Positions 22,656 through 35,816 of a stretch of DNA of 64,000 bases are shown piece by piece. The DNA comes from Fimbriimonadaceae bacterium (GTDB taxonomy: Bacteria; Armatimonadota; Fimbriimonadia; Fimbriimonadales; Fimbriimonadaceae): NCBI GenBank assembly GCA_019454145.1, contig CP075366.1, positions 1,901,564 to 1,965,563 of the forward strand, given 5' to 3'. A model generated the notes under the pieces. That model had not been told where the DNA came from. It did not search any database and saw only the letters and a program-made list of their open reading frames with translations. A program made the position numbers and the translations under genes. Numbering within the stretch: the stretch's first letter is position 1; each line of letters starts with the position of its first letter.

Positions 22656-23843
22656 ATGGTTCTGTCGGCGGTTTTTGGTTCGGTTATTATCTCGGGTCTG
22701 CAATTGCAGACTCATCGCCAGTTTTTGATTCCCGATGAACCGCTTACATTGGGAGGATATACGGAGAGAGGAGACAAAATTACGACGGGCGGCGACCCTT
22801 TATTTGCTCAGATTGCGATCCTCAATGACGGAAAAACTAAAGTTGCCTTAGTTGCTTTTGAAGGGTTGACTGTTCCGGAGAGCCTATACCGGGAGGTTTC
22901 CCGCCGACTGCCAGGTTTGCCGATCATGCTTGTCGCAACTCATACGCATTCGGCCCCGGATACACAGATGTTGAATGATCGCATGACATTCCGCATCCCT
23001 GGAATAGCCACATACAAAAAACGGTGGCTCGATTGGTACGCATTGCGAATCGCCGGAGGAATCTCAATCGCCCAACAATCTGTTCCGCAGAACATCAAGA
23101 ACCTCACCCTACAAGAATCTGTTTCAACCTTTGCGCGCTCACGGCGGAAGGAAACAACCGTTTCAAACCGCTTGATTCGCCTCAGTGGAGATAGTCACTC
23201 TATACTCACGGTATTTGGTGCTCACGGAACCTGTTTTGAAGCCGATAATCTCGAAACCAACGGCGATTGGCTCGGCGCATTGATGAGGTTAGACAGCGGT
23301 TTAGTCTGGCCGGGCGCTATTGGGAATGCATCGCCTAATGTGGGAGAAGGCACTGGTCAAGAGCGGAGCGAATGGATGGCGATGGGACTGAACCGCGAAC
23401 GAACCCCGGTAAGGCCACTCAAAGGCAACTTGCGATTTCTCACCGAGCCGATTGAATTAGACAAACCAACCCCTCACCCAGAATTTGCAAAGTCAAATGG
23501 ACTTAATGAGACGTTAGCGAATATTGTCGTTCTAAAATTCGCGCCACAAGAAGCGCATATCTCCGCACTGCAAGTAGGTGACTGTCTCTTTATCGGAGTT
23601 CCTGGCGAGCCAAGCGAAGAATTAGAACGCATGATCGTAGCATCAGCGAAAAAGCAAGGATTTTCAAGCGCTGTCATCAGTCACTGCAACGGATGGATGG
23701 GATATTTGCTTTCACCGATTGATTACGACCGGGGCGGATACGAAGCGACTCTCATGCTTTACGGGCGGGAATCCGGATTACGCGTTGTTCAAGCCGCCGA
23801 ACGAGTGATCAGGCGGTTTAGCTCAAAGTCACTGGCGGAATAG
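22656..23843 (+). CDS. Neutral/alkaline ceramidase-like protein
   Basis: The 395-residue protein shows the neutral ceramidase N-terminal-domain pattern: ITTGGDPLFAQIAIL, a metal-binding VATHTHSAPDTQML, FGAHGTCFEADN, IGNASPNVGEG and LFIGVPGEPSEELERMI with SHCNGWMGYLLSP near the C-terminus. These correspond to the zinc-site and active-site blocks of the family. It lacks the full C-terminal Ig domain of ceramidases (about 650 residues), so true ceramide hydrolysis is unproven. A hydrophobic N-terminus may be a weak signal peptide. It converges on the M48 gene with a 15-bp overlap. Confidence 0.8.
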   Translation: MVLSAVFGSVIISGLQLQTHRQFLIPDEPLTLGGYTERGDKITTGGDPLFAQIAILNDGKTKVALVAFEGLTVPESLYREVSRRLPGLPIMLVATHTHSAPDTQMLNDRMTFRIPGIATYKKRWLDWYALRIAGGISIAQQSVPQNIKNLTLQESVSTFARSRRKETTVSNRLIRLSGDSHSILTVFGAHGTCFEADNLETNGDWLGALMRLDSGLVWPGAIGNASPNVGEGTGQERSEWMAMGLNRERTPVRPLKGNLRFLTEPIELDKPTPHPEFAKSNGLNETLANIVVLKFAPQEAHISALQVGDCLFIGVPGEPSEELERMIVASAKKQGFSSAVISHCNGWMGYLLSPIDYDRGGYEATLMLYGRESGLRVVQAAERVIRRFSSKSLAE

Positions 23844-25037
23844 GCGGAAACTGAGTTCGCCAATAATGCGCTTTAAGCCGACAACGACTTTGTCTCTCGC
23901 ATCGGCAACTGATTTGCCTTCTTCTAAATCACCAGCTTCAACGGCAATCATTGTCCGACCATTACCAAGAACCTCGTTACCGTTGGTAGTCAACTGGAAC
24001 ATTTGCGGAACTGTATCCAAGAAAGCATTGGTTCGGATGACTGCTTGCGCGGCTCTGGCTTTTGCCGATTCACCCTTGAACGTATAGAGCAAGCTATCGC
24101 CAAACCAAAGATCAAATGATCCATCTGGTTTCAATAGCGATCTTGCCGAGAGTGAAGTCGTAGTTTGACTTCGCTTCAACGGAATCCCCGCTTCGTTGAG
24201 CGATTTGATCAAAAACTTTGCCCGGTCAGATGAAGGAGGGTGGGTTCGGTAGATTCCCCAGTCAAGTTGTGGGCTGAGGACTTCTTTGTAAGCTAGCCGC
24301 TCCATGAAGGTGAGCATGCCAACTGGGTTGTAGCGGCTCTTTTTCATGTACTGGAGCCCGCCGTAATCAGAAGCTGTTTCTGCTTGAGTACTCCAACCGC
24401 TAACCAACCCTTGGGTCGCAAGGTCAACTGCCATAACCGAGTGCATTGCTTCTGGGCTTCGGCTAAGGGCCGCCGCAATAATGAGTGGAATCCGCAGAAT
24501 ATCGAACTTAGACTGCTCTTTACGCAGGGTTTCGACATGCCGGAAGGATGCATGGGCGATTTCGTGCGCCACGACAGCGGCGAGTTCATCATCGCTTTCG
24601 GCAAAGTTGAGAAGTCCTTCGTAAAAATAGATATATCCGCCGGGCAGCGAAAAAGCGTTGACATCATCGCCTTGCACTAATTTGAATGTGTAATCGAATT
24701 TGTTGAGTCGCCGATCACCCCATAGGACTGCAACTGCCTCTGAATTGGCGATTTCGGCCATTTCTGCGCCGATTGCTTGTAGCCTTGCTGTGGCATCGGC
24801 ATTAGTGCTGAGCTTGAGTTCCTTTTCAACTTCAACAGAATATTCCTTGCCCAGTTGGCGATCCTTTTCAAGATCCTTCTGATGCTTTTCTTCATCCGGA
24901 TCATGTTTCGTCGGTTTAGCTGGAGGAGGCTCCTGGCCTTGCTGCGTTTGTTGCTGATCGGCAAACAAATCGGCTCCGCCCAACTCTATTTGTTGGGGCG
25001 TTGAACTTAAGATCAATGCAAGAAGCAGGCTATTCAT
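23829..25037 (-). CDS. M48-family metalloprotease, secreted
   Basis: The 402-residue protein has an N-terminal signal sequence (MNSLLLALILSSTPQQ), a charged linker (residues 30-65) and an M48 peptidase domain with zinc motif VVAHEIAHASFRH and the third ligand region TASDYGGLQYMKK downstream. FSLPGGYIYFYEGLLNF precedes the HEIAH helix as in BepA-type proteins. The C-terminal 120 residues may be a partner or inhibitory domain. A periplasmic quality-control role like BepA is an inference. Its start overlaps the cupin stop by 8 bp. Confidence 0.88.
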   Translation of the reverse strand: MNSLLLALILSSTPQQIELGGADLFADQQQTQQGQEPPPAKPTKHDPDEEKHQKDLEKDRQLGKEYSVEVEKELKLSTNADATARLQAIGAEMAEIANSEAVAVLWGDRRLNKFDYTFKLVQGDDVNAFSLPGGYIYFYEGLLNFAESDDELAAVVAHEIAHASFRHVETLRKEQSKFDILRIPLIIAAALSRSPEAMHSVMAVDLATQGLVSGWSTQAETASDYGGLQYMKKSRYNPVGMLTFMERLAYKEVLSPQLDWGIYRTHPPSSDRAKFLIKSLNEAGIPLKRSQTTTSLSARSLLKPDGSFDLWFGDSLLYTFKGESAKARAAQAVIRTNAFLDTVPQMFQLTTNGNEVLGNGRTMIAVEAGDLEEGKSVADARDKVVVGLKRIIGELSFRLFRQ

Positions 25038-25452
25038 TTTCGGAGCTACGTGGTATTGACGTATTGGCGGCTTGCTGGTTCCCTAAGTGTTGGGGAACGT
25101 CCCGTTCACGATCCACAATGCACAAGATACCGAATGGTTCGCTCGATGAGTTCCTAAATTGGTGCGGCTGATGAGGTGAAACGTGAACGACATCGCCCTC
25201 TGAGATCGTATGCCAGTCGTTATCCAGCAGCACTTCCCCTTCACCGCGCAAAACAACGACGCAGTGTTCGTGCTGGTGTTGTTCATGCGATGAATATCCC
25301 TCAGGAGAGAGTTCAAAGTAACGGGTTTCAAACTTGCTGTCGGAACTGGAAAACAAGACTCGACGGCTGACATCTTGCCAAGTACCAGGCTCATTTTTGT
25401 AGGTGGTGAGGTCAACCGTTGGCCACGTTTTGTTGTTTGATTTATGAATCAC
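25030..25452 (-). CDS. Single-domain cupin protein
   Basis: The 140-residue protein has the two cupin motifs: HEQHQHEHCVVVLRGEGEVLL (metal-binding His and Glu) and GDVVHVSPHQPHQFRNSS (second His). It is a small metal-dependent cupin of unknown reaction; family members include isomerases, dioxygenases and sensors. It overlaps the upstream alcohol dehydrogenase by 4 bp and the downstream M48 gene by 8 bp, so it is part of a tight operon with two dehydrogenases. Confidence 0.82.
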   Translation of the reverse strand: MIHKSNNKTWPTVDLTTYKNEPGTWQDVSRRVLFSSSDSKFETRYFELSPEGYSSHEQHQHEHCVVVLRGEGEVLLDNDWHTISEGDVVHVSPHQPHQFRNSSSEPFGILCIVDRERDVPQHLGNQQAANTSIPRSSENE

Positions 25453-34036: not shown

Positions 34037-34064
34037 GGAACCAAGAACACTCGTGCCCTTGTAA
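34037..34064 (+). promoter_or_regulatory. Possible ECF-type promoter for the STN/LTxxQ gene
   Basis: GGAACC (34037-34042) resembles an ECF sigma -35 element; TTGTAA lies after a 16-base spacer (34059-34064). A transcript from here would have about a 30-base leader before the ATG at 34101. The -10 match is poor, so this is tentative. Confidence 0.3.
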
Positions 34065-34100: not shown

Positions 34101-35075
34101 ATGAACCGAAGACTCGTATCAACTATTGCTGGAACCATCGTAATTGGTTCTGCGATTGGCCTTGCCGTCGCACAAGTGAAATCGGTCGCAGATGCAAACG
34201 CTCCGGAAACTGAGCTTGTTGCTCAGGAAATGACCGCCGGGGAAATGATCAACTATCTCAAGGAGCAAGGGGCGCCGTTTATTATCGAAACCACTGACTT
34301 GCCGAGGGATCGAAAGTTTGAAGTGCATCTGAAAGGTTCCTCGCCGGAAGATTCCATCAAAGCGGTTGCAGAGGCACTTAACCTCAACGTGAAGAAGAAA
34401 GGCAATACGTTTGTTATGGAAGATCCGAAGCGCGATATGGATTTCGATTTTGAGTTCATGCACCCAGGTCAAGACCATCCGATGTTTATGTTCAAAGGCG
34501 AAGGTTTTGAAGGCTTTGGCGAATCCATGGGCAAGCTTTTCGACGATCCTGAATTCTGGAAAGAACTGAAAGGCAAAGACGAAAAAGACTGGACTCCTGA
34601 GCAAAAAGCAAAGTTTGAAGCAAAGATGAAGGAGTTTGAAAAGCGAATGGAATCATTCGGCGAGAACTTCAAATTTGAATTCGATGAAGGCAAAATGAAA
34701 GCCTTTACTGAAAAGATGGAAAAACTCGGCAAGGATTTTGAATTCAAATTCGACGAAAATCATCTGCGGGAAATGGAAGAGCACGCAAAAGCTTTCAAAT
34801 TCGATTCCAAGAAGATGGAAGAGCGAATGAAGGAAATGGAAGAACGCATGAAGAAGAATTCGGAAGGTCTTCGCGTTCGTATCATGGATACCGAAAAGTT
34901 GCTGGATTCCATCACTGATGCTCAATGGAAGTTGATGAAAGAACGCGGTCACCTGAAGATCAGCGACCTGACTCCTGCTCAAAAGGAAATGCTGGGCGGC
35001 CTGAAGGGCGATCATACCGATCTCAACATCACGATCACCAATAATGGCAAAACCCTGAAAATCCAAGGTAATTAA
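34101..35075 (+). CDS. Secreted protein with STN-like domain and LTxxQ motifs
   Basis: The 324-residue protein has a signal peptide (residues 1-24, cleavage in AVAQV). Residues 40-108 look like a short secretin/TonB N-terminal domain (MTAGEMINYLKEQGAPFII, FEVHLKGSSPEDSIKAVA, LNLNVKKKGNTFVM). From residue 113 it is rich in Lys, Glu, Phe and Met with about three repeats of a FxFxFDE strand followed by a charged helix (starts near 190, 213, 232). Three LTxxQ-type motifs occur: WTPEQ 164-168, ITDAQ 271-275 and LTPAQ 290-294, reminiscent of Spy/CpxP periplasmic chaperones. I cannot assign a known family. Followed by a strong terminator, so it is monocistronic. Confidence 0.75.
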   Translation: MNRRLVSTIAGTIVIGSAIGLAVAQVKSVADANAPETELVAQEMTAGEMINYLKEQGAPFIIETTDLPRDRKFEVHLKGSSPEDSIKAVAEALNLNVKKKGNTFVMEDPKRDMDFDFEFMHPGQDHPMFMFKGEGFEGFGESMGKLFDDPEFWKELKGKDEKDWTPEQKAKFEAKMKEFEKRMESFGENFKFEFDEGKMKAFTEKMEKLGKDFEFKFDENHLREMEEHAKAFKFDSKKMEERMKEMEERMKKNSEGLRVRIMDTEKLLDSITDAQWKLMKERGHLKISDLTPAQKEMLGGLKGDHTDLNITITNNGKTLKIQGN

Positions 35076-35091: not shown

Positions 35092-35123
35092 AATCGGGGT
35101 TCTTGTTAACAAGAACCCCGATT
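35092..35123. terminator. Bidirectional intrinsic terminator (32-bp perfect palindrome)
   Basis: A perfect palindrome centred on GTTAAC, with a T-rich run on the plus side (ctttta) and on the minus side (tttgttttg). It ends the plus gene stopping at 35075 and the minus gene stopping at 35127. Confidence 0.9.
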
Positions 35124-35126
35124 CTT

Positions 35127-35816
35127 TTATTCTAGGCTCGTGCCGTTTGCTTCTAAGCTGAATCGGTAGCCAAACAGAGCCGAGGCTTTTCGGCACATCA
35201 CCATACGGCTAAGGAATATCTCGAAGTACTCCATGACGGTGGCAAAGCTTGTATCGATTTCTAAAATTAACTTTATGACCTTGGTTTCTTTATCCATCAC
35301 AACTCTGGATTTTTCGACGGCGTAGTTCACACGGTCATGGATATCAAAAGTTTCCATCAAGGGGTTCTGAACTCGTGAGCGGTGGACATCGCTTTTATCC
35401 GCTACGATGAGAGCGGCTGACATGACGCTGACGGGAGTTCCGGCCAGTTCTTCGTGATTACCGATGGCGCCTAGAATTGGTGCGATTTCAACGGGAGGCA
35501 TTCCCATTTCGTTGAGCAAAACAAACGCCATATTCGCCCCGGTGAGGGGGTGGTCATTGCGATTGATGACGTTGCCAATATCATGAAGATAACCAGCTAT
35601 TTGACCGAGTTCGATTTCTCGCTCTGGCATACCCAGGTGCTCCATAATGTGCTTTGTAATGCCGCTGACGATTCCGACGTGGCGGTGCCCATGCTCTGTG
35701 TAGCCCATGCTGTTGAGAAGCTCGTTAGCTCCATCAATCAGGGTCATTACCTTGGGGTTTGCTTTTACATCTTTGAGTGTGATTGGTCTGTTGGTGGAGG
35801 TGGTTGGTTCAATCAT
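35127..35816 (-). CDS. HD-domain phosphohydrolase
   Basis: The 229-residue protein has the HD motif set: GHRHVGIVSGIT (first His), GYLHDIGNVINRNDHPLTG (HD pair), GAIGNHEEL and ALIVADKSDVHRSR (final Asp). This indicates a metal-dependent phosphohydrolase of unknown substrate; a nucleotide or cyclic-dinucleotide substrate is possible but not shown. It is the last gene of the 13-gene minus-strand run, overlapping the upstream deacetylase by 4 bp. Confidence 0.88.
   Translation of the reverse strand: MIEPTTSTNRPITLKDVKANPKVMTLIDGANELLNSMGYTEHGHRHVGIVSGITKHIMEHLGMPEREIELGQIAGYLHDIGNVINRNDHPLTGANMAFVLLNEMGMPPVEIAPILGAIGNHEELAGTPVSVMSAALIVADKSDVHRSRVQNPLMETFDIHDRVNYAVEKSRVVMDKETKVIKLILEIDTSFATVMEYFEIFLSRMVMCRKASALFGYRFSLEANGTSLE

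Follow-up and report, generated by a model that had tools for sequence, protein, structure and literature searches.

What is the function of a secreted protein that joins an STN-like domain to a Lys/Glu/Phe/Met-rich region and LTxxQ motifs, and is it related to the Spy/CpxP stress chaperones, of which LTxxQ is the hallmark? The question is raised by a gene in a 64,000-nucleotide stretch of Fimbriimonadaceae DNA (hereafter the window), which a first-pass annotation, made from the letters alone, had suggested to be a stand-alone, stress-regulated gene with a possible promoter and a strong terminator of its own. The features of the locus are listed in Table 1. The reading frame starts with an ATG preceded by AGAGGGA, and the terminator was found as described. 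Within the window's genus the gene is flanked by ssb/rpsF on one side and an HD-domain gene on the other, and comparison of the gene neighbourhoods of the family loci showed no conserved neighbour across genera. Since the neighbours change between genera, the gene has no fixed operon partner and does stand alone. The N-termini of most homologues are hydrophobic, like the signal peptide region of the window protein, and the family protein is probably periplasmic, judging from the signal peptide as read by eye.

Table 1. Features of the locus and of the ECF sigma operon (positions are those of the window unless a locus is named)
Feature	Position	Strand	Basis
CDS, secreted protein of 324 aa	34101..35075	+	ORF; homologues in many Fimbriimonadales
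ECF-type promoter: -35 GGAACC (34037-34042), N18, -10 GTAA (34061-34064)	34037..34064	+	sequence; recurrence in family and sigma orthologues
Signal peptide, residues 1-24 (AVA/Q25), without lipobox Cys	34101..34172	+	read from sequence by eye
STN / secretin N-domain-like domain, residues 40-110 (about)	34218..34430	+	Pfam matches in family, alignment, model, fold matches
Variable K/E/F/M-rich region, residues 111-256; low-confidence helices, weak internal repeats	34431..34868	+	
WTPEQ (164-168), starts helix in variable region, not conserved in family	34590..34604	+	alignment and model
Conserved C-terminal module, residues 257-324 (about 66 residues); three helices and beta-hairpin	34869..35072	+	A1 alignment, model, fixed motif spacing
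ITDAQ (271-275), first conserved LTxxQ; T272 directly before helix 273-282	34911..34925	+	models
LTPAQ (290-294), second conserved LTxxQ; T291 directly before helix 292-297	34968..34982	+	models
Intrinsic terminator, 14-bp stem, between the gene and convergent gene 35127-35816 (-)	35092..35123	+	
Operon: ECF sigma, zf-HC2 anti-sigma, 320-aa secreted protein, HtrA	L202:945-4553 = G000:C1:1609444-1613052	- (L202)	

A protein search was run on the window's genome and on 60 relatives, 61 genomes in all, and 28 of these proved to have homologues. The profile A1, an alignment of the C-terminal module, was used on 291 genomes of the phylum and matched 86, nearly always with one copy per genome; only Fimbriimonadales, the window's own order, gave strong matches, with E below 1e-11. 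A contig scan returned six loci, five of them in records named Fimbriimonadaceae, Fimbriimonadia or Armatimonadetes, and 'Armatimonadetes bacterium Uphvl-Ar1' was among the records with such loci. By homology, the gene is a member of a Fimbriimonadales (Armatimonadota) family that is mostly single copy. No homologue of known function was found for this family, the NCBIfam and PHROGs searches gave no credible match, and the literature on LTxxQ with Spy/CpxP and on Fimbriimonadaceae with STN domains held nothing on it. The remark in the first-pass annotation that no family with such a combination was known still holds, as no searched library describes it.

Conservation in the family protein is highest in the C-terminal module, which all members keep, and Q275, G283, L285, L290 and Q294 are invariant in the A1 alignment. 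All three LTxxQ-like motifs that had been reported (WTPEQ, ITDAQ and LTPAQ) are present in the window protein, and shuffling its mature sequence 20,000 times never gave three, but only the last two are conserved in the family. The spacing of these two is exactly 19 residues in all 55 of 55 members having both, the sole exception, L133, being a fragment at a contig edge; WTPEQ, in the variable middle, shows no such conservation across the family. In the models all three motifs lie at helix starts. The module modelled alone gave an alpha-alpha-alpha-beta-beta arrangement with a mean pLDDT of 82. A PDB sequence search with the module profile and with the whole protein gave no credible match, and Foldseek/VIA on the module returned no structure above Z 3.5, which is not proof of a new fold. 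The small C-terminal domain is apparently undescribed, having no detectable Pfam, NCBIfam or PDB relative.

The module was also observed outside the family. A BlaR1-type M56 peptidase of G024, a genome from the window's taxonomic family (L142:5379-7499, minus strand), carries it in the C-terminal, extracytoplasmic part, and the peptidase gene is adjoined just upstream by a gene for a 131-aa BlaI-like protein. Judging from this architecture, the LTxxQ-hairpin module seems to be mobile, and it may sense something. Proteins of various kinds in the phylum, many of them large and apparently secreted, contain a weaker version of the hairpin, LTxxQ-N14-LTxxQ around a Gly/Leu core (L061-L075; about 150 to 1000 residues long, E 1e-3 to 1e-8). 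An STN-like region was clear in four of those examined, namely L071, L072 and L073, which belong to genomes of the window's taxonomic family, and L062 from elsewhere in the phylum; the hints were weak in L070 and L074, and nothing significant was found in the remaining weaker-hairpin proteins examined. These weaker hairpins possibly represent a phylum-wide helical hairpin, by homology or convergence.

The strongest new result is a putative promoter common to the family genes and the orthologues of one ECF sigma factor. The ECF-type promoter proposed for the window gene, GGAACC-N18-GTAA, is exactly where it had been placed. In its strict form (GGAAC[CT], 15-17 bases, [CTG]GTA[ATC], at most 250 bases upstream; summarised as GGAAC[CT]-N17/18-GTA), the site was found at 25 of 52 family genes, compared with 1 of 466 neighbouring genes of at least 150 aa and 0.16 per shuffled set, the family scored for the strict motif being the one in which upstream regions had been inspected beforehand; the comparison with the sigma operon is independent of the family. 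The strict match is absent in about half of the family genes, much of this in one genus (g20), and near-matches are visible by eye in about a dozen further members. A looser form, GGAAC-N16/19-GTA, lies shortly upstream of the best orthologues of one ECF sigma in 24 of 24 genomes and of none of six paralogues; these 24 orthologues are not independent events because they are related by descent, and the site is kept down to 50-60% protein identity of the sigma orthologues. The sigma gene of the window's genome, at G000:C1:1612444-1613034, has GGAACT-N18-GTAG and therefore matches the looser pattern but not the strict one.

An ORF with a zf-HC2-like HxxxCxxC pattern comes after the sigma orthologue in all 24 cases. 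In the operon (Table 1), Sigma70_r2/r4 domains were found in the sigma factor, zf-HC2 in the anti-sigma factor and Trypsin_2 and PDZ in the HtrA protease, and no Pfam match was found for the 320-aa secreted protein in the RseB position. From the promoter type common to this operon and the family gene, we conclude that the secreted protein very probably belongs to an RpoE-like regulon of the envelope-stress response. The genome carries about 20 ECF-like genes, and another sigma factor with similar specificity is therefore conceivable. The genome-wide count of the promoter pattern was not above that of the reversed control; the motif alone therefore defines no regulon, implying that the regulon is small or the motif too loose.

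Sites of this type were also seen at other genes. A PDZ/abhydrolase protein and a YncE-like beta-propeller protein have the promoter site in three genomes each and are possible further targets. In the window's genome (G000), GGAAC[CT]-N17/18-GTA[AT] was found 8-11 bases before the ATG, as if leaderless, at L174, L198, L234, L240, L241, L242, L248 and L252; such leaderless-like sites are in excess in this genome, and most of the genes concerned encode secreted-looking proteins (thioredoxin-like, beta-propeller, metallopeptidase-like). In the window, GGAACT-N18-GTAT lies at 25127-25154 on the minus strand, about 90 bases before the ORF 23829-25037 on the same strand.

Matches to Pfam STN (PF07660) with E <= 0.1 were obtained for 25 of 46 family members, the best of them at 5.9e-10. 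The window protein itself gave no Pfam STN match and was assigned by alignment with the family, with which it aligns throughout. Its model from residue ~40 to 110 showed a beta-alpha-beta-beta-alpha-beta-beta order (E42 H46 E60 E72 H82 E96 E103) and fitted PupR STN, XcpQ N0, FecA and FpvA with Z 5.2-6.4 and rmsd 2.6-3.1, PupR STN being among the closest fold matches (Z 6.4); some phage baseplate domains matched the model at similar Z. The family matches, the order of strands and helices and the fold matches all agree with the STN-like domain claimed for the protein.

The middle region of the window protein contains 14% F, 9% M, 18% K and 20% E and lacks I, V and Y (counted on residues 116-256), which confirms the Lys/Glu/Phe/Met bias noted earlier. 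Across the family, this region is enriched over background 3.3x in K, 2.7x in M, 1.9x in E and 1.8x in F and depleted in R, V, I, T and Y (V and I to about half of background), and Cys is almost absent. The region evolves fast, and its length varies from about 45 to 480 residues among family members with the composition bias kept throughout. Constant composition over varying length is what a flexible binding region, and not an enzyme, would be expected to show. Model confidence is low in this region of the window protein. Clear short repeats occur in some members; in L146:6079-7464 (minus strand) tandem copies of a 12-residue unit (FGPEFQKKMQEQ-like) make up the middle region.

We tentatively read the protein as an RpoE-like-sigma-controlled secreted protein acting as an ATP-independent holdase in envelope stress, and we hold this whole reading to be possible, with a probability somewhat short of even. 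Upon envelope stress, the RpoE-like ECF sigma would transcribe the gene and the product would be secreted, probably to the periplasm. There its flexible, charged, Phe/Met-studded helices could capture unfolded envelope proteins by their exposed hydrophobic segments, and the STN and C-terminal domains might serve for docking, whether onto a partner, the outer membrane or the protein itself. In its mode of action it would resemble Spy or Skp while being a member of neither family. The ATP-independent chaperone role is our best guess, its basis being composition and regulation. The chaperone reading is supported by the promoter, the operon content, the signal peptides without lipobox, the STN domain, the composition of the middle region with its near-absence of Cys, the conserved C-terminal module and the changing neighbours, and it is weakened by the net charge, which varies from -40 to +24, unlike Spy's basic surface (PMC8144458). 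That the protein represents a new class of periplasmic stress chaperone, with a Phe/Met-studded, Lys/Glu-rich client region between an STN domain and an LTxxQ-hairpin, under RpoE-like control, specific to Armatimonadota and with a mobile hairpin that would recur in a BlaR1-type sensor and in further secreted proteins of that phylum, is a more detailed proposal that we regard as doubtful.

The main rival of the holdase reading is a feedback role comparable to that of CpxP, which damps or tunes the CpxA response. With its STN or C-terminal domain the secreted protein would bind the tail of the anti-sigma factor, HtrA or the protein in the RseB position, and so damp or tune the response. The promoter type common with the sigma/anti-sigma operon and the place of PupR STN among the closest folds are consistent with such a role, as is the known part of STN domains in cell-surface signalling, where they act together with anti-sigma factors such as PupR (PMC7186176). 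However, the anti-sigma factor here has 150 aa with a short tail after the membrane segment and matches zf-HC2 alone, without a FecR-type domain, and the family gene lies beside the sigma operon in none of the loci examined. We rate the feedback role as unlikely.

Similarly unlikely is a structural or repair factor of the envelope, in which the STN domain would sit on an outer-membrane or peptidoglycan machine and the charged region would span the periplasm as a rod to the C-terminal domain. STN/N0 domains form the periplasmic end of secretins and TonB-dependent receptors, both represented among the fold matches, and the middle region varies in length, as a spacer might. Nevertheless, the Pfam search of the 46 members found no conserved membrane anchor or peptidoglycan-binding domain, and the protein of G012 (L134) has kept the C-terminal module but has no recognisable STN region.

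The Spy/CpxP profile (LTXXQ, PF07813) scored 9.8 bits on the window protein against a cut-off of 24.3 (E 1.8) and matched 2 of 46 family members, weakly (best E 0.0075). Spy (PMC8144458), taken as the functional model, is a 16-kDa four-helix dimer whose cradle is basic; the C-terminal module of the family, modelled as a single chain, is alpha-alpha-alpha-beta-beta, a comparison that concerns this module and not the low-confidence middle region. Separate LTXXQ-type proteins with several motifs, wider spacing and Gly/Gln-rich linkers occur in the window's genus (L293-L297) and are candidates for true Spy-like proteins; those of G001 and G005 are above the PF07813 cut-off, whereas that in the window's genome is below (E 0.017), and the GGAAC-type promoter was absent at the candidate genes examined. 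A link by descent to Spy/CpxP was consequently rejected: that the protein is a true but divergent Spy/CpxP protein with an STN domain attached is highly improbable. The two conserved motifs at helix starts and the stress-type promoter speak for such membership; the profile score, the 19-residue spacing, the terminal beta-hairpin and the better LTXXQ candidates elsewhere in these genomes speak against it.

These results offer a first view of an envelope-stress response in Armatimonadota, with a conserved ECF promoter, a likely sigma operon and one conserved secreted target, and the C-terminal module is small enough for direct study. If the middle region does bind unfolded proteins, it would represent a chaperone design in which composition is constant and sequence and length drift. 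With its promoter type in common with the sigma/zf-HC2/320-aa/HtrA operon, the family gene resembles a member of an RpoE-type regulon (rpoE-rseA-rseB-degP), the likeness of the 320-aa protein to RseB resting on position only, and we know of no counterpart of the family protein in that regulon. The STN domains of FecA, FpvA and PupB, of the PupR C-terminus and of secretin N0 resemble the family domain in sequence, in strand and helix order and in fold; unlike in these proteins, the family domain belongs to a small secreted protein that has no beta-barrel, no secretin part and no anti-sigma part, and a K/E/F/M-rich region follows it. Compared with Spy and CpxP, the family has no significant PF07813 match, its two motifs lie in an alpha-alpha-alpha-beta-beta module, its promoter is of the ECF type and not under Cpx/Bae control, and its charge is variable and often acidic, in contrast to the basic binding surface of Spy (PMC8144458); it is nevertheless like them in having LTxxQ at helix starts, in being secreted, in its stress-type regulation and in its richness in Met and charged residues.
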